Position numbers and translations under genes: made by a program
IMG/VR virus record: IMGVR_UViG_3300010331_000007
Coordinates: 1-38,331 of that record
DNA: 38,331 nucleotides
From: a virus
Direction: 5' to 3' (one strand)
Shown: one piece after another, positions 8,081 to 25,778 of the stretch
How positions within the stretch are numbered: the first letter of the stretch is position 1
How the letters are laid out: every line of letters begins with the position of its first letter
Notes under the pieces: generated by a model
The model's input: only the letters and a program-made list of their open reading frames with translations
What the model was told of the DNA's origin: nothing
Database searches by the model: none

Positions 8081-8629
8081 ATGGGCGTTATTGAAAACAT
8101 CATTGCTGAGGTCATCAAGACCGAAGGCGGCTACGTGAACAACAAGGCCGACAAGGGCGGCGAAACCAAATTCGGTATTACCGTTGCGGTGGCTCGTGCC
8201 AATGGTTACGCAGGCGCCATGGTTGATATGCCCAAGAGCCTAGCCGAATCCATCTACCGTAAGCGCTACATCACTGAGCCGCTGTTCGACCAAGTGCTGG
8301 CAATCAATGAAACGGTCGGCGTCGAGCTGATTGATACCGGCGTAAACATGGGGCCCGCCCGCGCAGCGGAGTACCTACAACGCTGGCTCAACGGCTTCAA
8401 TGTGGCGTGTTCCGGTTATCAGGATCTGTTCGTTGATGGTCGATTGGGGGCGCTGACCCTAGATGCGCTGCGCTTGTTTCTGAGCGTTCGCGGTGCTGAT
8501 GGTGCCTGCGTGCTGCTTCGCGGCCTGAACAGCAGCCAGGGTGACCGCTACCTTGAACTGACCGAAGCGAACAAAACCCAGCGCTCATTCCTGTACGGCT
8601 GGGTGCGTGCTCGGGTGGTGATCGCATGA
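8081..8629 (+). CDS. Endolysin, glycoside hydrolase family 108 N-acetylmuramidase
   Basis: A 182-residue peptidoglycan hydrolase. An upstream in-frame ATG at 8069 overlaps the ribosome binding site, so the ATG at 8081 preceded by GGAGAAAA is preferred. The N-terminus carries the GH108 signature: KTEGGY (catalytic Glu about residue 15), then N-x-x-D-x-GG-x-T-x-x-GIT. The C-terminal half (about residues 105-165, DLFVDGRLGALTLDALRLF) fits the peptidoglycan-binding domain that accompanies GH108. There is no signal peptide or SAR segment, so release should depend on a holin. The candidate holin is far away, at 25431. The stop overlaps the next gene by 4 bases. Confidence 0.92.
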   Translation: MGVIENIIAEVIKTEGGYVNNKADKGGETKFGITVAVARANGYAGAMVDMPKSLAESIYRKRYITEPLFDQVLAINETVGVELIDTGVNMGPARAAEYLQRWLNGFNVACSGYQDLFVDGRLGALTLDALRLFLSVRGADGACVLLRGLNSSQGDRYLELTEANKTQRSFLYGWVRARVVIA

Positions 8630-11608: not shown

Positions 11609-11787
11609 AGTGTCTAGTAGCTGGTGAGCTCAGAGCTAAGCTTGAAGAGTCCCGTAAACACCTATCCGGCCAGGGTGAGGATTTCACCATGGAACGTGTA
11701 CGCCGGTTCGAGCAGGCCGACCAGCGTTTGCAAGAGGCTTGCGCGCGTCTAGGCATTAGAAAGCCGCAAATGATCGCCTCGCACTGA
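11605..11787 (+). CDS. Small partner protein of the ClpP-like gene, unknown function
   Basis: A 60-residue charged, helical protein with a strong ribosome binding site (AAGGAG, 8 bases before the ATG) and a 4-base overlap with the protease-like gene. Residues 8-50 are rich in Glu, Arg and Gln in a coiled-coil-like spacing. I do not recognise a family. Tight coupling suggests that the two proteins act together, for example as substrate adaptor or inhibitor, which is inference only. Confidence 0.6.
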   Translation: MKCLVAGELRAKLEESRKHLSGQGEDFTMERVRRFEQADQRLQEACARLGIRKPQMIASH

Positions 11788-11788
11788 G

Positions 11789-11816
11789 AAAAAAAGCCCC
11801 GTCAAGGGGCTTTTTT
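11789..11816. terminator. Bidirectional terminator between the accessory pair and the integrase
   Basis: A GCCCC/GGGGC stem (11796-11800 and 11806-11810) is flanked by an A-run (11789-11795) and a T-run (11811-11816), so it works on both strands. The integrase stop codon lies inside the hairpin, which serves the two convergent units. Confidence 0.85.
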
Positions 11817-13070
11817 ACGTCTGTCCTCATCTGTTTTTGCGGACAATCCAGCCCAAATCCTTTCAAGTTCTGCTGGCGACTCATCATCCATCCATTTTGC
11901 ATAGACCTCCACCAACATCGTGAAGTCCTTGTGGCCCATCTGCTTGGCGATGAATGCTAGGTTGCCTCGCGCCGTTAGGCACCAGCAAGCGTAGGTGTGC
12001 CTAGTCTGGTAGGGCCGGCGCGAGCGAATGCCCGAACGCTTTTGAATGGCTGCCCACTTTGTGTTCCATGACGTGGGAACAAACCAGTGGTTGATGATTT
12101 TCTTTCTGGCTTGCGTTGTCGGGGACAGTAGAGGGGTAACTGTTTCGACGCGGCTTTCGTGGCGGTTCATGTATACCTCAATCGCGCGCGGTGCGTGGTC
12201 GGCCACCAACCCCATCAGAATTTTGCAGGCCTCGACAGCTGGTGGCATCAGAAGTACCGCCCGAGGCTTTCCAGTCTTCGGGACTTTGAATGTGCCATCC
12301 GCTGTGATCGCCCGGATGATATTGATCTGTCCAGCGACCAGGTCGATGTCTTCTACAGCTAGCGCGCACATCTCACCCGGGCGAAGGCCTGTGTACACGG
12401 CGAGGGTGATCGCTGCTGAGTCCTGCGGGTGGAGGCATCCTTTGGTGAGCAGCTGTTCGAACTCGGTCTTTGTCAGCGGATCCGGTTCACGTCCGATCAT
12501 CGCGAATCGTATGCAAGCGGTGGACAGGCCTTTGCGGCAGTAGCCGTTGTTCTCGCACCAGGCCAGGAAGCCGGCGAACGTTGCTAGATAATGGTTCGCG
12601 GTCGAAGGCGCTCTGGTGGCGATCAATTGAGTTCTGAGCAGTTGGATATCTTCGGGCAAGAGGATGCCTGCCAATCGGTCTGGCCCCAATAGTTCCGTGC
12701 AGATATCCAGTGCGTAACCGTATTTCTCCTCGGTCATCGGCGTGATGTCGACAGCTTTCAGCGGTTTGTACCGGGCCAGCAGTGCGGCTAAGCGTTCATC
12801 CTTTACGGTGCTGTAGTTGGTCGCGTTTTTCGAGTTGGGAAAGTGACGGTTGTAATCGAAATGTCCTGTTTTGATCTCATGAATGATTGCCGCCCTGAGT
12901 AGGGCGGCATGTTTGATGTTGGCTTTTGTTACCGGGAGGCCAAGGGATTCGCGGCAGCGGACTCGCCGCCACATGAACACGACGCGAATGTTACCGCCGT
13001 GTAACTCAATCCCTTTATGCTTGACCAGTTCGGCTTCTAGGCTGCTACTTGTGGCGCGCTCTCGGCCCAT
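11802..13070 (-). CDS. int: Tyrosine recombinase integrase
   Basis: A site-specific recombinase of 422 residues when started at 13070, where GGAG lies 8 bases upstream. A longer frame reaches 13142, but it would overlap most of the excisionase start region. The N-terminal part (GIELHGGNIRVVFMWRRVRC) is the DUF3596-type arm-binding domain. A SAM-like core-binding domain follows, then the catalytic domain: R230 in TGLRPGE, K265 in VPKTGK, R357 in YQTRHTY, H380 in QMGHKD, and nucleophile Y390 in VEVYAKW. The usual first His of the HxxR box is Tyr here. It is the last gene of the leftward operon and ends in a bidirectional terminator, pointing at the putative attP. Confidence 0.95.
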   Translation of the reverse strand: MGRERATSSSLEAELVKHKGIELHGGNIRVVFMWRRVRCRESLGLPVTKANIKHAALLRAAIIHEIKTGHFDYNRHFPNSKNATNYSTVKDERLAALLARYKPLKAVDITPMTEEKYGYALDICTELLGPDRLAGILLPEDIQLLRTQLIATRAPSTANHYLATFAGFLAWCENNGYCRKGLSTACIRFAMIGREPDPLTKTEFEQLLTKGCLHPQDSAAITLAVYTGLRPGEMCALAVEDIDLVAGQINIIRAITADGTFKVPKTGKPRAVLLMPPAVEACKILMGLVADHAPRAIEVYMNRHESRVETVTPLLSPTTQARKKIINHWFVPTSWNTKWAAIQKRSGIRSRRPYQTRHTYACWCLTARGNLAFIAKQMGHKDFTMLVEVYAKWMDDESPAELERIWAGLSAKTDEDRRKKAP

Positions 13071-13234
13071 CGGTCGTACTCCGTCATATTTATTGCGATG
13101 CGTCCGTCTGGAGCTTTTCGCCATACCCGGCCTTGAGGCCAAGTCCCGTCTTTAACTTTGTGGCGAATGGCGTCTTCGCTATACCCGGTAAGTTCGGCTG
13201 CCCGTTTGATCATTACCCAGCGTGGTAGGCTCAT
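13037..13234 (-). CDS. xis: Excisionase-like DNA-binding protein
   Basis: A 65-residue protein. The motif WVMIKRAAELTGYSEDAIR is a winged-helix/MerR-like recognition region. GRVWRKAPDGRIAINMTEYDRW is the wing and tail typical of phage excisionases. It overlaps the methyltransferase stop (ATGA) and extends 34 bases past the preferred integrase start, so xis and int are coupled. Its role would be to direct the integrase to excision. Confidence 0.8.
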   Translation of the reverse strand: MSLPRWVMIKRAAELTGYSEDAIRHKVKDGTWPQGRVWRKAPDGRIAINMTEYDRWAESAPQVAA

Positions 13235-16265: not shown

Positions 16266-16774
16266 GCTGCTTCACCTGGTATGACAGCGGGTATAGCTGC
16301 CAATGCTGCTGGGCTGTCTGCACGGATAGCGCCAAGGATGCGATGCGCGATGCCGTTCAACTGTTCCATCTGGGTTGCTGCTCTGGCACGCCAAGGTTCT
16401 GTACCTTTCACGGGTAACCAAGTTTTATGGGCCAGGCTGAGCGTGGCGGCGGTATCCACCAACACCTGAAGGTCAGCTTTGTTCAGCGTGCTAGCTGCGG
16501 AAGCATCCAGTTGCCTCTGGAGGTCTTGGATAAAGTGGTTTTTGAATTCGATGGTCTCCAGAAATCCCTTTCGCTCACGTGTGCGGCGAGATGCCAGCGT
16601 GGCCAAGTCTGCATTCAGCGCGTTCATGCGGACGCTGCTATCTGCGACGCCGGCAGATTTTCCGATCGCGTATGCCTTGCGCAACTCACGCTTGATCGCT
16701 TTGGTGATGAAGTGGATAAGCAGGGTGCCACCCAGGATGATGCCAATCAGAATTACAAAGTGTTGTGTTTGCAT
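16262..16774 (-). CDS. Membrane-anchored protein of unknown function
   Basis: A 170-residue protein started at 16774, with GAGGA 8 bases upstream. A longer frame to 17005 runs into the previous gene and has no good start. Residues 5-24 (HFVILIGIILGGTLLIHFI) form one membrane segment, followed by a basic, helical, Gln-rich cytoplasmic or periplasmic domain. It lacks the size and position of an i-spanin, and being an early-operon gene argues against lysis. I do not recognise a family. Confidence 0.7.
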   Translation of the reverse strand: MQTQHFVILIGIILGGTLLIHFITKAIKRELRKAYAIGKSAGVADSSVRMNALNADLATLASRRTRERKGFLETIEFKNHFIQDLQRQLDASAASTLNKADLQVLVDTAATLSLAHKTWLPVKGTEPWRARAATQMEQLNGIAHRILGAIRADSPAALAAIPAVIPGEAA

Positions 16775-16793
16775 GTGCTGTGTCCTCAGGAGA

Positions 16794-16832
16794 GCCCGCC
16801 GCCGGATCGGTGGTGAGAGGACGGCGGCGGGC
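16794..16832 (-). other. GC-rich hairpin with CCTCTCACCAC loop (nut-like element, copy in left operon)
   Basis: An 11-bp perfect stem pairs 16794-16804 with 16822-16832. Its 17-nt loop, read on the minus strand, contains CCTCTCACCAC followed by CGATC. It lies in the gap between the DUF2303 gene and the membrane protein gene. The same loop motif occurs after cro (20900-20910) and in the PL leader (19781-19792). Confidence 0.65.
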
Positions 16833-17697: not shown

Positions 17698-18042
17698 TTA
17701 CTGCGAGACGTGTCGCAGCCTTTCCATTGCTTCATCTTCGGCGACCGGGCGTAGCGCCAGATCCTGTTGGCGAGGGTCGCGGCGTGTGAGGTTGCCTTCA
17801 GGCGTAAGGAAGAACAGTGATGTGCCGCGAGAAAGAACCGGCTCTTTCACTTTGACGTCAGCCTTTACGTTCATCTGGCCGCGCCCGTCCGGCTTGTACG
17901 AGAGCTTGATTACGATGTCGCCGCCCTTGCCAGCCAACCGAATAGCGTCAATCAGGCGGTGTTGCGATTCGGAGAGTTCATCGAGCAGGCCACCGGCTTC
18001 AATGTCGCGCAGGGTGTCGATAAATGGTCGTGCTTTGCTCAT
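17698..18042 (-). CDS. Conserved phage early protein, unknown function
   Basis: A 114-residue protein. Its middle (GGDIVIKLSYKPDGRGQMNVKADV) looks like a beta sheet, with charged helical flanks and no motif that I recognise. It sits immediately upstream of DUF2303 in the operon, a pairing that recurs in related prophages as far as I recall. The ribosome binding site AAAAAGG is weak. Confidence 0.65.
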   Translation of the reverse strand: MSKARPFIDTLRDIEAGGLLDELSESQHRLIDAIRLAGKGGDIVIKLSYKPDGRGQMNVKADVKVKEPVLSRGTSLFFLTPEGNLTRRDPRQQDLALRPVAEDEAMERLRHVSQ

Positions 18043-18091: not shown

Positions 18092-18334
18092 TCACGCCGC
18101 TTTTGAACGTGCTTGTGTGTCCAGGTATTCGGCGAGGTCGTGCAGATACACGACGGCTTGCCCCTTGCTGGATCCGCCTAGGCGCGTGATCTTCAAGTTG
18201 ATACTGCCTGCGCTGACTTTGCGCAGCAGGTACCGGTCGCTTGCAATGTGCGAGAAGTACCGCTCGCGAACAGCGCTGAGTGTTGGGCACGGTGTGGCGA
18301 ACTCTCCGCGTAATTGATCCAAGGTGCCACTCAC
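18092..18334 (-). CDS. PrtN-like pyocin activator protein
   Basis: An 80-residue transcription activator of the pyocin activator (PrtN) family. LLRKVSAGSINLKITRLGGS followed by VVYLHDLAEYLDTQ is the conserved DNA-binding core of that family (residues about 36-73). It starts at a GTG overlapping the previous stop (GTGA). In P. aeruginosa, PrtN binds P-boxes and turns on pyocin genes after PrtR is cleaved in the SOS response. Here the gene is in the PL operon under the CI-like repressor, so it would be made only on induction. A P-box-like array at 25195-25238, ahead of the late genes, is the obvious target. Alternatively it could act on host pyocin loci. Confidence 0.85.
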   Translation of the reverse strand: MSGTLDQLRGEFATPCPTLSAVRERYFSHIASDRYLLRKVSAGSINLKITRLGGSSKGQAVVYLHDLAEYLDTQARSKAA

Positions 18335-19566: not shown

Positions 19567-19769
19567 GCTGCGTCACCACCCCATGGACTGACGTGATCGG
19601 CAGCCATTGGAGCTGGTGCGGGCGGTACGGCCAGAGCGGCGCGGCCCTTGGGCGTGATGATGACTAGCAAGCCGGTGCGGCGCTGGACGGCCTCAATGGA
19701 GCTGAGGTTGGAAGCTGCTGCCGGATGTAGGTACACCGGGCAGCGAGAGTTGTGCTGTGTCGTTTGCAT
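19563..19769 (-). CDS. First gene of the leftward operon, small unknown protein
   Basis: A 68-residue protein at the position of lambda N in the PL operon. It is Ala/Pro-rich at the C-terminus, with RRTGLLVIITPKGRAAL in the middle. It is not obviously Arg-rich like lambda N. I do not recognise it. Its leader carries the CCTCTCACCAC motif 12 bases upstream of the ATG and no good Shine-Dalgarno sequence. Confidence 0.6.
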   Translation of the reverse strand: MQTTQHNSRCPVYLHPAAASNLSSIEAVQRRTGLLVIITPKGRAALAVPPAPAPMAADHVSPWGGDAA

Positions 19770-19780
19770 GGCTCGTACTC

Positions 19781-19792
19781 TGTGGTGAGAGG
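19781..19792 (-). promoter_or_regulatory. CCTCTCACCAC element in the PL leader (nut-like)
   Basis: On the minus strand the 12-mer CCTCTCACCACA lies between PL and the first ATG. It is flanked by a short CGTA/TACG pairing that leaves a 17-nt loop. It matches the loops of the hairpins at 16794-16832 and 20887-20929. Confidence 0.5.
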
Positions 19793-19804
19793 TTTACGGA
19801 ACAG

Positions 19805-19847
19805 ACAATACAAATACGTATTGGATTAGTCAATACGTATGCGTATC
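19805..19847 (-). promoter_or_regulatory. PL promoter with two repressor operators
   Basis: On the minus strand, -35 TTGACT (19828-19833) and -10 TATTGT (19805-19810) are 17 bp apart. Two 16-bp imperfect palindromes of the form AATACG-N4-CGTATT overlap them at 19807-19822 and 19832-19847. They match the perfect operator at 20633-20648, so the CI-like repressor or Cro should shut off the leftward operon here. Confidence 0.75.
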
Positions 19848-19903: not shown

Positions 19904-20596
19904 TTAGAAAATTTCTAGCTTCGAAATCACGACTCCACAGATGATCCCATCCGGTGGTATTTCAATGATCGGCTCGGGCCACGAGGGATTTAGTGGCCTT
20001 AGAAATTTACGGGTTCCTTCCATGACGAGCTGCTTGAATGTTGCTTCATCGCTATCCATCAGCTTGGCGATGACTAGGGAGCCGTTTTCAGCATCGCGCT
20101 CGGGGTCAACATAGATGATGTCTCCTTCGCGAAATGAGCGGCGCTCGTGCGGATTGAACATTGATAGCCCGCGCACCCTTAGAGCGTATGTCTCTTTACT
20201 GTGGGAAACTGCGCAAGGAAGCCATATATCAACATCATCAATATTGTAGACGTCGCTAATCTCGCACCATGATCCTGCTTGAACCCACGAGATCAGAGGA
20301 ACGCCTCCTTTAATAGTTGGCCCTGGGCCGATATTTGATTCTTCCTTAAAAAGCCGTCCCGTTTGCGGTGATATTGGCTCCGAATTACTGCCGCCATTCC
20401 AGAGCCAATTACTGTTCACCTGCAGGGCTTTTGCAATTCTTTCGACGTTTGCGTGCCTGGGGCTGAGCGATTCGCCAGTTACGATTCGGTGGATTGTCGG
20501 TTGAGATACACCTGAGCGTCGACCTAGCTCGCCTTCTGAGAGTTTTAGCTCTTCCATGCGTTTGGCAATACGTTCTCCGATCATTTTGCGGCCCAT
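19904..20596 (-). CDS. CI-like phage repressor with S24 self-cleavage domain
   Basis: A 230-residue repressor. Residues 6-45 form a helix-turn-helix (ERIAKRMEELKLSEGELGRR, then GVSQPTIHRIVTG). The C-terminal S24/LexA-like domain has cleavage site A107-G108 (SWVQAGSW), nucleophile S145 (VRGLSMFNP) and base K178 (SLVIAKL). The intervals resemble those of lambda CI and LexA, so RecA-stimulated self-cleavage is expected. The start may be 20596 or the ATG at 20584; neither has a clear Shine-Dalgarno sequence, and a very short leader is possible. Divergent from cro, it should maintain lysogeny by binding the AATACG-type operators at PL and PR. Confidence 0.93.
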   Translation of the reverse strand: MGRKMIGERIAKRMEELKLSEGELGRRSGVSQPTIHRIVTGESLSPRHANVERIAKALQVNSNWLWNGGSNSEPISPQTGRLFKEESNIGPGPTIKGGVPLISWVQAGSWCEISDVYNIDDVDIWLPCAVSHSKETYALRVRGLSMFNPHERRSFREGDIIYVDPERDAENGSLVIAKLMDSDEATFKQLVMEGTRKFLRPLNPSWPEPIIEIPPDGIICGVVISKLEIF

Positions 20597-20615: not shown

Positions 20616-20658
20616 ATTGTATTGCCTTCATCAATACGCTTGCGTATTATCCTGTCAA
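20616..20658. promoter_or_regulatory. Divergent PR/PRM promoter region with perfect 16-bp operator
   Basis: Rightward, -35 TTGCCT (20622-20627) and -10 TATTAT (20645-20650) are 17 bp apart. The perfect palindrome AATACGCTTGCGTATT (20633-20648) fills the spacer and touches the -10, so bound repressor blocks PR. Leftward, a TACAAT -10 (20616-20621) or a TTGACA -35 (20653-20658) could serve the repressor gene. A weaker half-site ATACG lies near 20607-20612. Confidence 0.75.
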
Positions 20659-20682
20659 TGCGAAGGCGCATCGGTGAATGCA

Positions 20683-20880
20683 ATGACTATTCAGCAAATG
20701 TTGGCGGACCTCCTCAAGCGCGGCTTCTCGCAGCGGGCAATTGCCGATCAGGTGGGAACCACGCAGCCCACCATTTATCGCGCCACTAAGGGTGCAGATA
20801 TTCGATACGAAACCGGCAAAGCAATTGAGCGCATGTTCTACCAAGAGAAAGACGCAGCCGAGCGAAAGTCGGCAGCTTAA
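20683..20880 (+). CDS. cro: Cro-like regulator
   Basis: A 65-residue helix-turn-helix protein (DLLKRGFSQRAIADQVGTTQ, then PTIYRATKG). It is the first gene right of PR and is divergent from the repressor. The ATG at 20683 is preferred; an in-frame GTG at 20674 with AAGG upstream is an alternative. A longer frame to 20617 would start inside the promoter. It is expected to bind the AATACG operators and promote lytic development. Confidence 0.8.
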   Translation: MTIQQMLADLLKRGFSQRAIADQVGTTQPTIYRATKGADIRYETGKAIERMFYQEKDAAERKSAA

Positions 20881-20886
20881 AAAGGT

Positions 20887-20929
20887 GCCGGAACTGGGGC
20901 CTCTCACCACAAGATTCCCCCAGTCCGGC
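20887..20929 (+). other. Hairpin with CCTCTCACCAC loop directly after cro (nutR-like element)
   Basis: A stem GCCGGAACTGGGG (20887-20899) pairs with CCCCAGTCCGGC (20918-20929) with one bulged A. The 18-nt loop begins CCTCTCACCAC and contains AAGATTC. It begins 6 bases after the cro stop and has no T-run, so it is not a simple terminator. Its position equals that of nutR/tR1 in lambda. Confidence 0.65.
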
Positions 20930-21019
20930 TTATGACGACACAGCACATGCATCGGTCATGGTCATAGAGTAGGGAATGCCTTGCTTTATTGCCACACCGT
21001 AACAGGGGTATTTACGGTT

Positions 21020-21508
21020 ATGAGTCGTACGGATCTATTGCCTGACGCTGGTCAGGTCCTTTCACTGCGTCAGGCGCTGTATCGCGCAGGGCGTGACTAC
21101 AAGGGCGGTATCACTGCCCTTGCCTATGACATGGTGCTTGATAACGACACCGTCCAGAAGAAACTCAAGCTTGATGAGGAGCGTCGTTGGTTGACTCCCG
21201 ATGAGCTTGAAGAAGTGATTCGGTTGACCGAAAGCCCGCTGCTGCTTGACGCCTTGATGCGTCCGGCGGGCGCCGTTTGGTACAAGCCTGAGCCAGTAGC
21301 AGCAACTAAAGATGCACTGAAGGCCGTCGGCGAGTTACTCGCGGAAACGGGTGAGTTTGTGTCCAGCATGCACAGCGGCGCAGCGGACGAGATCTGGGAG
21401 TTGCACGAGGTTGCGCTGCTTGATAAGCACGGCGTAGACGTTATTCGTGCGGTGCTTGGCATCATGGCAGGTGCACGCCAAGCGATGGGGGGTCATGACA
21501 ATGGCTGA
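21020..21508 (+). CDS. CII-like phage regulatory protein
   Basis: A 162-residue protein started at 21020 (MSRTDLLPDAG). LRQALYRAGRDYKGGITALA, then MVLDNDTVQKKLKLD and LTPDELEEVIRLTESPLLLDALM, match the phage regulatory protein CII/YmfL family of transcription factors, distinct from lambda CII. The C-terminal half is helical, perhaps for oligomerisation. It is in the PR operon after cro. It probably tunes the lysis-lysogeny decision. Confidence 0.75.
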   Translation: MSRTDLLPDAGQVLSLRQALYRAGRDYKGGITALAYDMVLDNDTVQKKLKLDEERRWLTPDELEEVIRLTESPLLLDALMRPAGAVWYKPEPVAATKDALKAVGELLAETGEFVSSMHSGAADEIWELHEVALLDKHGVDVIRAVLGIMAGARQAMGGHDNG

Positions 21509-21707
21509 TGTCATCGATCTGGCAAACGATCATGCCGAGCATATGCTGCAGCTTGCTCTCAATCGCGCCACGCCGGAGCGCACAGTTCGAGCCAGTGCAC
21601 AGTTCTGTGAAGACTGCGGCGACGCGATCCCTTTGCTACGTCAGCAAGCGATTGATGGTTGCGAGACCTGCGTTAGTTGCCAGGGCAATCGGGAGTGGCG
21701 CAGATGA
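21501..21707 (+). CDS. TraR/DksA-type zinc finger protein
   Basis: A 68-residue protein. The ATG at 21501 is preferred over 21495 because GGGGGG lies 8 bases upstream. FCEDCGDAIPLLRQQ followed by CETCVSC forms a C4 zinc finger (C-x2-C-x17-C-x2-C, with CEDC near residue 36). The family is phage TraR-like, DksA-related proteins that bind RNA polymerase in the secondary channel. It overlaps both the CII-like gene and the primase, so it is coupled to replication gene expression. Confidence 0.85.
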   Translation: MADVIDLANDHAEHMLQLALNRATPERTVRASAQFCEDCGDAIPLLRQQAIDGCETCVSCQGNREWRR

Positions 21708-24376: not shown

Positions 24377-24708
24377 CAACCTATCCATCTGTGTTAGGTG
24401 TGCTGGGTATGTGTTGGGTTGATTCTGCCTACTCGACACAGCAAGAACTCCCTATTTCCGTGGCTCCTAGACCCCTGTGTTGGGTGTGTTGGGTTTATTG
24501 TCGCGTGCGCGCGTGCGTGACGTTATTTACTCAACTCACGGCAGAAACATTTTTTTCTTATGCGAGGACCAATAAACCCAACCAACCCAACACACTCAAC
24601 ACACATAGTTATAAGTCATTGAATTTAAAGGCTGTTAGCTGTGTTGGGTTTGTGTTGGGTATGGGGTTTTCTGTGTTGGGTTGGTTTTGTCGGGGGAATG
24701 GGCAGTGA
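24373..24708 (+). CDS. Small ORF embedded in the iteron region, uncertain gene
   Basis: A 111-residue frame starting at ATGA with the primase stop and ending at GTGA with the antiterminator start. This double coupling favours a real gene. The protein is odd, however: repeats of VLGVLGMCWV and PLCWVCWVYC simply translate the DNA iterons. Composition is rich in Cys, Trp, Val and Leu, with no recognisable domain. It may be a coding remnant of the origin, or only open by chance. Confidence 0.35.
   Translation: MTTYPSVLGVLGMCWVDSAYSTQQELPISVAPRPLCWVCWVYCRVRACVTLFTQLTAETFFSYARTNKPNQPNTLNTHSYKSLNLKAVSCVGFVLGMGFSVLGWFCRGNGQ
24391..24681. repeat. GTGTTGGGT iteron cluster (putative replication origin)
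   Basis: The 9-mer GTGTTGGGT occurs exactly at 24411, 24477, 24486, 24641, 24652 and 24673 on the plus strand, and at 24585 on the minus strand. One-mismatch copies are at 24391, 24400 and 24594 (minus). Three sets are head-to-tail with no gap (24391/24400, 24477/24486, 24585/24594). An AT-rich stretch (24603-24630) lies among them. Iterons beside a primase-helicase gene suggest an origin bound by that protein, as in P4 (inference). Confidence 0.65.
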
Positions 24709-25175
24709 TCAGGGAAATAGAAGAGTTGATGGTTCACTGGGGTGTGCAGTCGAGGGAGTTCGGCCTGGGTGGCGGACTCGGTAGTCAAATGGGCTCGATC
24801 ATTGAATGGGGCGGTGCACCTCCTCGTGGTACGCCGGGGTCGCGGATTCTGGATGGTGCGGGTATTGGGATGGACGTGATCGCCACCGAGATCGATGCAA
24901 CCGTCGCTGAGCTTGAACGCAAGGGTTATAGCGAGCTGGCTGTTCTGGCCGTCCACCGGTATTGCCACCTGGCGTCGGTGCGCGAGCAGATGCGAGTGGT
25001 GGGGATCGCCGAGGGGGCAGATCGTACGTACCGCAATTGGGTGCAGCGACTGCATCAGCAAGTGATGCTGATCCTGGTGATTCGCAGCGGCACCACGCGC
25101 GGTCGTGCGGGGCAGCGGCAAGAGGGTGACCATTGCAAGGTAACGAACCACAGCGGCAGGCGAGCGCGTGTGTAA
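24705..25175 (+). CDS. Phage antitermination protein Q family
   Basis: A 156-residue protein started at GTG 24705, with GGGGGA upstream and overlapping the preceding frame. IREIEELMVHWG, GLGGGLG, and ATEIDATVAELERKGYSELAVLAVHRY followed by SVREQMRVVGIAEGADRTYRNWVQRLHQQV fit the PF06530-type antitermination Q family, including a C-terminal sigma-like helix-turn-helix. It is the last gene of the PR operon and stands just before the late control region, as in lambda. It should act on RNA polymerase leaving the late promoter. Confidence 0.75.
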   Translation: MIREIEELMVHWGVQSREFGLGGGLGSQMGSIIEWGGAPPRGTPGSRILDGAGIGMDVIATEIDATVAELERKGYSELAVLAVHRYCHLASVREQMRVVGIAEGADRTYRNWVQRLHQQVMLILVIRSGTTRGRAGQRQEGDHCKVTNHSGRRARV

Positions 25176-25194
25176 CCGTTCGTCGGGGTGCTTT

Positions 25195-25238
25195 GTCGTA
25201 TTGTGGTCGTATTGATGTTGTATTGCTGTCGCATTATG
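25195..25238 (+). promoter_or_regulatory. P-box-like tandem 11-bp array upstream of late genes
   Basis: Four 11-bp units (25195-25205, 25206-25216, 25217-25227, 25228-25238) have the consensus GTCGTATTGNN. Read from 25200 they are ATTG-TG-GT-CGT, ATTG-AT-GT-TGT and ATTG-CT-GT-CGC, then a degenerate ATTATGTC. This is the repeated ATTGnn(n)GTnn(n) pattern that defines the PrtN-binding P-box of pyocin genes (recalled from the literature). A possible promoter lies downstream (TACAAC near 25281). The rest of 25176-25430 holds a terminator and GC-rich inverted repeats but no gene. Confidence 0.7.
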
Positions 25239-25371
25239 TCCAACCGTTAAACACCGCTTTTCGGTCTTTCCGAACGCAGGTACAACGTAGGCACGATCTG
25301 CGATTTGCGTCTGAGTCGCCAACTGAGCACGTGCTGTGCACGCAACACCCGGCTTCCCCAGGCCGGTCACC

Positions 25372-25395
25372 AATCCCGCTTCGGCGGGATTTTTT
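25372..25395 (+). terminator. Strong terminator between late control region and holin (tR'-like)
   Basis: A perfect 8-bp stem AATCCCGC/GCGGGATT (25372-25379 and 25384-25391) with loop TTCG and a T-run to 25395. Its place between the putative late promoter and the holin is that of lambda tR', which Q-modified polymerase reads through. Confidence 0.85.
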
Positions 25396-25430: not shown

Positions 25431-25778
25431 ATGACTACTGAGCAACAAGCGCTGTTCGATATGCCGATTTGGTTAGTGATCGTCCTGGCCCTGGTCGGTG
25501 GTGTATCTGGTGAGATGTGGCGAGCAGACAAGGATGGTGCGCGAGGGTGGTCTCTGGTGCGGCGCCTGGCGTTGCGATCCGGTGCCTGCGTTGTCTGCGG
25601 CCTATCGACGATGATGCTGTTATACGCGGCGGGTGTATCGATATGGACTGCTGGCGGCTTCGGTTGCCTGACTGCGATGGCCGGCGCAGATGTAGCGATA
25701 GGGTTGTACGAACGTTGGGCCGCCAAGCGACTCAGTGTGTGCGAAGTTCCACCGGGTGCTGGTAACAGTGGCCAGTGA
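25431..25778 (+). CDS. Putative holin (holin superfamily III / LydA type)
   Basis: A 115-residue membrane protein with GAGG before its ATG at 25431. Hydrophobic segments lie at about 12-27 (IWLVIVLALVGGVSG), 48-68 (ACVVCGLSTMMLLYAAGV) and 72-88, and a short charged tail follows. The layout and the GGVSGEMWRADKDG loop resemble LydA-type holins. It would permeabilise the inner membrane to release the GH108 endolysin, although the two genes are about 21 kb apart along the late operon. It is the first gene after the late terminator. Confidence 0.65.
   Translation: MTTEQQALFDMPIWLVIVLALVGGVSGEMWRADKDGARGWSLVRRLALRSGACVVCGLSTMMLLYAAGVSIWTAGGFGCLTAMAGADVAIGLYERWAAKRLSVCEVPPGAGNSGQ

Follow-up and report, generated by a model that had tools for sequence, protein, structure and literature searches.

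The Pseudomonas phage genome analysed here (the window, a single stretch of 38,331 nucleotides) carries ahead of its late genes a P-box array that, very probably, is bound by the PrtN protein which the phage itself encodes, and the two would form a PrtN-activated late switch. The array occupies exactly positions 25195-25238 (+) and consists of four 11-bp units arranged head-to-tail as direct repeats: GTCGTATTGTG, GTCGTATTGAT, GTTGTATTGCT and GTCGCATTATG. With such a switch bacteria set off their pyocins, which are phage-tail toxins. The published P-box consists of four repeats of 10-11 nt with the pattern ATTGnn(n)GTnn(n) (PMC4905994). Units 1-3 display ATTGnnGT exactly and the fourth is degenerate (ATTATGT). 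The distance from the array to the ATG of the holin gene is 193 bp; the published spacing of 60-100 bp to the Shine-Dalgarno sequence applies to S-type pyocins, and in R-tailocins the distance between P-box and holin gene is similarly long.

Taken singly, ATTGnnGT is found in the 38-kb window at chance level (20 seen vs 18.3 expected). The motif by itself is therefore uninformative, single ATTGnn(n)GT matches were dropped as evidence, and it is the periodic arrangement that carries significance. The best four-unit array with 10/11-bp spacing in the window scores 49/66, at 25192, and the highest score in 300 dinucleotide shuffles of the window is 46 (0/300 reach the observed value); three ATTG motifs with 11-bp spacing were likewise found in 0/300 shuffles. 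A preliminary description of this DNA had proposed four 11-bp units that fit the P-box pattern. Since the published consensus is matched and the array is beyond chance, that observation stands. The description also suggested a scan for further arrays of this type; with the class-A unit defined below, no second array was found in the whole 38,331 bases.

A cognate activator is encoded by the phage. The open reading frame at 18092-18334 (−), previously described as a PrtN-family gene, does belong to this family (PF11112, E 2.5e-24), and its product is modelled as a winged-helix protein (pLDDT 83). By Foldseek probability, the closest fold is that of the phage P2 DNA-binding protein 4lhf (0.93, TM 0.56, E 0.13), which we take to be P2 Cox, an excisionase. 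Cox binds direct repeats and acts in excision as well as in transcription. A search of solved structures with the PrtN sequence gave no match.

The prtN gene is part of a leftward operon with a near-consensus promoter that can be read directly from the DNA, TTGACT-17-TATTGT (19805-19833, −). Two predicted operators (19806-19846), recognized as AATACGC/GCGTATT palindromes, overlap the −35 and −10 sequences of this promoter. The rightward early promoter TTGCCT-17-TATTAT (20622-20650, +) has two predicted operators of this type as well (20632-20647 and 20656-20671, +), and the palindrome is thus present in two copies over each of two divergent early-operon promoters. A domain search identifies the gene at 19904-20596 (−) as encoding a CI/PrtR-like repressor with a helix-turn-helix and an S24 self-cleavage domain; by eye, a terminator-like hairpin lies between this gene and the prtN operon. 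From their position, the palindromes are assigned to this repressor. The layout would fit derepression of prtN once the S24-type repressor is inactivated, and the earlier placement of prtN in a repressor-controlled left operon is borne out by the predicted operators over its promoter. The gene at 21447-21707 (+) encodes a TraR/DksA-type zinc-finger protein (PF01258, E 5e-9; TIGR02419 slightly below cut-off).

Relatives drawn from IMG/VR, INPHARED and Pseudomonas genomes have arrays with 10-11-bp periodicity at the equivalent site, and their motifs differ. Class A (ATTG), to which this phage belongs, has the motif ATTGTGGTCGT, and class B (CAAAG) has CAAAGTTGCGT. Other motifs include CCGTCAGCCC in Pseudomonas aeruginosa phages such as Lodos and CCAGCGTAGAG in PG1, and there are others too. 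When classes A and B are placed on gene trees of 29 loci, the PrtN tree needs one change (mean 9.5 with shuffled labels), the trees of the PA0613-like protein and of primase four each, those of phrog8889 (the gene adjoining prtN) and DUF2303 five each, that of CII six and that of KilAC seven. The A/B split is a single event on the PrtN tree, and its weight derives from reassortment relative to the other genes. About 20 bp separate the array from the PA0613-like gene, compared with ∼7 kb for prtN, so that linkage alone would predict the opposite pattern.

Ten alignment columns of PrtN split classes A and B perfectly, vs 0/144 columns of the PA0613-like protein. Eight of the ten PrtN residues are at 30-40 and 52-57, that is, in the recognition helix (33-41) and the wing (strands 50-52 and 59-61) of the model. 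In partial Mantel tests on 43 loci, where the permutation p values ignore relatedness of the loci, array and PrtN are correlated given the PA0613-like protein (r=0.565, p=0.0005), and array and PA0613-like protein are not correlated given PrtN (r=−0.06, p=0.97). Independent pairs taken from supported branches only number 2-5 and are all concordant (best p 0.0625). In one relative, L107, PrtN is class-A-like but varies in the wing, and the array units are about two letters off class A, which is in line with a graded co-change of PrtN and array. From these comparisons, repeats and activator appear to change together as a matched pair across related viruses.

PrtN is present in 15 of the 17 phage records that have the PA0613-like gene, and the remaining two are short fragments or truncated. 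The array is less regular in its occurrence. One locus (L045) has both genes and no array, the array scores of L007 and L008 are those of the background, and of 74 loci that encode both PrtN and the PA0613-like protein, 31 have scores under 41. In L034 and L035 the array is shifted by ∼300 bp, and the C terminus of the PA0613-like protein is truncated.

Downstream of the array, the element GTAnAAnG is found 30-56 bp away (mode 45) in 60/62 loci, phages and tailocins included, vs 70/14800 random windows. The element has a partner sequence at a distance of 17 bp, which is TTTTCG in this phage and TTGTTC-like in tailocins. From position and alignment, the predicted PrtN-dependent late promoter spans 25258-25286 (+), with TTTTCG as the −35 sequence (25258-25263), a 17-bp spacer and TACAAC (25281-25286), within GTAnAAnG, as a −10-like sequence. 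A consensus sigma-70 promoter was not found in the late region. GTAnAAnG and its partner are predicted to form a weak, degenerate promoter of the sigma-70 type, and relative to the predicted start this would place the array at about −98 to −55, as with an activator.

An intrinsic terminator (25372-25391, +) follows in the interval between late promoter and holin gene, at a position conserved in phages and tailocins. Nearly all loci have a terminator before the holin gene, which in phages lies ∼130-140 bp past the array and in several tailocins 90-115 bp past it. As in lambda, a terminator thus separates the predicted late promoter from the lysis genes. The first late gene (25431-25778, +) encodes the holin Hol (PF16085, by domain search), a member of the tailocin holin family. 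With a terminator downstream of the predicted late promoter, antitermination is predicted, and such a step is likely to be part of the late switch.

The proposed mechanism is as follows. In the prophage, the S24-type repressor would occupy the operators that overlap the promoter of the leftward, prtN-containing operon. DNA damage would inactivate the repressor, and PrtN would be made. PrtN would then line up on the four 11-bp units, which are helically phased, and activate the weak sigma-70-type promoter, whose −35 sequence starts ∼20 bp beyond the array; late transcription would lead to expression of the genes for holin, packaging and head. Regulation would in part be by read-through, and the best candidate for the antiterminator is the PA0613-like protein, or PrtN itself. 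A division of labour with PrtN as activator and the PA0613-like protein as antiterminator is preferred. The central proposal of the preliminary description, that a PrtN-like protein of the phage turns on the late genes through a P-box array once the repressor is inactivated, finds support in the consensus, the covariation, the operators, the predicted promoter and the gene order of tailocins.

The main rival to this division has PrtN in both roles, or at the terminator only. PrtN would be an antiterminator, as is AlpA: the promoter would be basally active, PrtN would load at the array, and polymerase would pass the terminator. That nearly all phages and tailocins have a terminator past the promoter-like element is consistent with this, as is the action of AlpA, which functions in such a way at alpB (PMC7969949) and whose repressor, AlpR, has been described as a PrtR homologue (PMC8609362); the PrtN-AlpA comparison is one of described function. 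However, the AlpA element is between −35 and −10, whereas the array is upstream of the −35 sequence. In addition, an activator seems to be required, given how far the promoter departs from consensus. PrtN as the antiterminator therefore seems unlikely, though not very much so.

The gene directly upstream of the array (24705-25175, +) was initially termed Q, and the array was described as lying between the Q gene and a terminator. Array and terminator are real, but the Q label is wrong. Pfam and structure searches gave no match to Q-family proteins, no credible sequence match was found among solved structures, and the identification as Q was rejected in favour of a PA0613-like protein (phrog_4300), a candidate antiterminator or accessory regulator. 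The match to NF051483 (E 2.3e-5) has 24.6 bits, vs a cut-off of 100 and a score of 174.7 for the tailocin homologue, measured on L140, a sister locus of the R-tailocin locus L142. The product thus appears to be a distant PA0613 relative that falls below the curated cut-off for family membership. A C-terminal helix-turn-helix is predicted (low-confidence model), and there are weak matches to sigma region 4.

Might the array be the binding element of this adjoining protein, as the lambda Q element lies beside Q, with PrtN uninvolved? The order of regulator gene, array and promoter, terminator and holin gene is lambda-like, the protein has the predicted helix-turn-helix, and the terminator after the promoter is conserved. 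Yet near-identical copies of the PA0613-like protein (L037 and L040) are accompanied by different arrays, and the protein offers neither discriminating columns nor a partial correlation with the array, nor the Q-family match that the lambda parallel calls for. In tailocins, moreover, the P-box is ∼500 bp away from the PA0613-family gene, with a GNAT gene in the interval in the one case checked. Such a role for the upstream protein is improbable, and PrtN remains the preferred reader of the array.

In that checked case, the L142 tailocin, the intervening open reading frame (11698-12210) encodes a GNAT acetyltransferase; several other tailocins have similar gaps. On the other side of the PA0613-like gene of the phage, the region between it and the primase gene (24390-24680) has many TGTGTTGGGT repeats in both orientations. 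These resemble replication-origin iterons and are kept in the relatives L107, L173, L175 and L190-L195.

Still less probable is a role of the PrtN-like protein as the phage excisionase, such as RdfN has in dusA islands, with the array as a coincidence or a decoy. RdfN belongs to the same Pfam family and is a proven recombination directionality factor (PMC8409611), PHROG 1300 carries the label excisionase, and 4lhf is the closest fold by Foldseek probability. But a different excisionase gene (13037-13234, −; phrog_539, E 3.4e-15) adjoins that of the integrase (11802-13142), so that PrtN is not needed in this capacity, and the assignment was rejected; a directionality factor of the RdfN type would be without another excisionase. 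Further, the sole array stands at the late promoter, array and PrtN covary, and the pairing is also found in R-tailocins, which do not excise. That the array is a chance product or inert relic of an older element, as its degenerate fourth unit and its absence from certain relatives might suggest, is scarcely credible given that no shuffle reaches it, that the 11-bp periodicity is kept at the equivalent site while the motif diverges, and that the distance between array and promoter element is fixed.

At the RNA level, a leader transcript would extend from the predicted start to the terminator (25293-25395, +), and its function, like its start, is a prediction. It holds the sequence GTGCTGTGCA (25331-25340), which is invariant among close relatives. 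The reverse complement of GTGCTGTGCA is the spacer between Shine-Dalgarno sequence and ATG of early genes; related sites in the window are at 18042 (−), 16775 (−) and 20936-20947 (+), and the ribosome-binding sites read AAGGCACAGCAC-ATG at the gene after prtN (18042) and GAGGACACAGCAC-ATG near 16775. In 29 phage loci, 61/238 copies of ACAGCAC have an ATG directly after them, and the mean is 1.7 for letter-shuffled 7-mers, which include the true word ACAGCAC as the source of their maximum. PG1-like phages display a matched change, with the leader sequence TTGCTGTGTC and ribosome-binding sites GACACAGCAA-ATG. The tailocins examined have neither such early ribosome-binding sites nor such a leader sequence. 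The case for pairing is made up of recurrence, invariance and the one matched change; the length of the match between leader and ribosome-binding site is not significant by itself in individual genomes (p mostly 0.1-0.3), 12 leader sequences revealed no compensatory pair, and matches to known RNA families are all far below gathering scores.

In Stx phages, the small RNA StxS originates from the equivalent PR'-tR' leader and binds a ribosome-binding site (PMC7873438). Like StxS, the leader described here would be a late transcript that stops at a terminator and holds a seed against a ribosome-binding site; unlike StxS it is a prediction, and it would target early genes of the phage itself. Perhaps the terminated leader acts as a small RNA in which the invariant GUGCUGUGC pairs with early ribosome-binding sites (GGCACAGCAC-AUG) and shuts off early genes at the onset of late transcription, with the PA0613-like protein allowing other transcripts to reach the holin gene; this is tentative and on balance doubtful. 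If true, a single activator would time both late activation and early shut-off. The early leaders also have a repeated element, CTCTCACC, two copies of which occupy a hairpin loop; the hairpin is stable (z −2.9 and −3.9) and is followed by ACACAGCACATG. It is found in the window at 20880-20947 (+), 16774-16830 (−) and 19751-19793 (−), and in L012 at 8100-8135 (+) and 4503 (−); it is absent from Rfam.

The possibility of cross-talk with host PrtN was also raised in the preliminary description. It is plausible for ATTG-class phages only, this phage included, because the arrays of other phages have diverged. The PrtN of Lodos was suggested to be able to activate host pyocin (PMC11846083). However, the P. 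aeruginosa phages Lodos, Turba, Presto and Meadow (L012-L014 and L016) have CCGTCAGCCC arrays and not ATTG P-boxes, which makes such activation by Lodos PrtN less likely. Thus, Lodos PrtN probably cannot cross-activate host pyocins, and PrtN of the phage described here might. Matched pairs of this kind should allow a prediction of which prophage PrtNs cross-activate host pyocins. In addition, the natural PrtN/array pairs make the DNA-recognition code of a little-studied family readable, and testable by swaps. Because a terminator follows the promoter, a need for antitermination in pyocin expression itself, perhaps by PA0613, can also be tested.

The R-tailocin locus L142, which was verified, has genes for PrtN, an S24 repressor, a PA0613-family protein, Hol holin, baseplate, fibre and sheath, as well as the P-box. 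The phage thus has the regulatory and lysis cassette in common with tailocins. The cassette had been viewed as a pyocin circuit wired into a lambda-like phage, but it is common to many Pseudomonas phages and tailocins, and a shared ancestry is a likelier origin than a recent wiring event. The pyocin control cassette, in part or in its entirety, is thereby indicated as a working late switch common to many temperate Pseudomonas phages. No paper describing P-boxes at phage late genes was found in a search that reached few subscription papers, and this silence is a weak argument for novelty.

Several known systems share features with the predicted switch. RdfN of dusA-specific islands belongs to the same Pfam family, PF11112, and P2 Cox, which we take 4lhf to be, has a similar winged-helix fold; in contrast to both, there is another excisionase in this phage, and the array stands at the late promoter. 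The AlpA/AlpR system of P. aeruginosa is similar in having a repressor relieved by the SOS response, a positive regulator, and a promoter followed by a terminator and lysis genes, but AlpA is an antiterminator with its element between −35 and −10 (PMC7969949). Lambda Q and PR'-tR' display the same succession of late promoter, short leader, terminator and holin gene, with a regulator gene directly upstream. They differ in that no Q homologue was detected here, and in the multi-unit array upstream of the −35 sequence, whose predicted reader is encoded in the left operon. The PrtN/P-box system of R- and S-pyocins likewise has an activator of PF11112, a repressor of the S24 type and four ATTG..GT repeats of 10-11 bp; its first late gene is that of Hol, a PA0613-family gene lies upstream, and a promoter element of the GGTAAAAAGT type and a terminator are present. 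Unlike the pyocins, the element described here is a phage, whose genes include those for primase, terminase, portal and integrase, its PrtN is encoded ∼7 kb away with other genes between, and phage array motifs have diversified. Strong comparative evidence thus points to the predicted PrtN/P-box late switch as a variant of the known pyocin control system.
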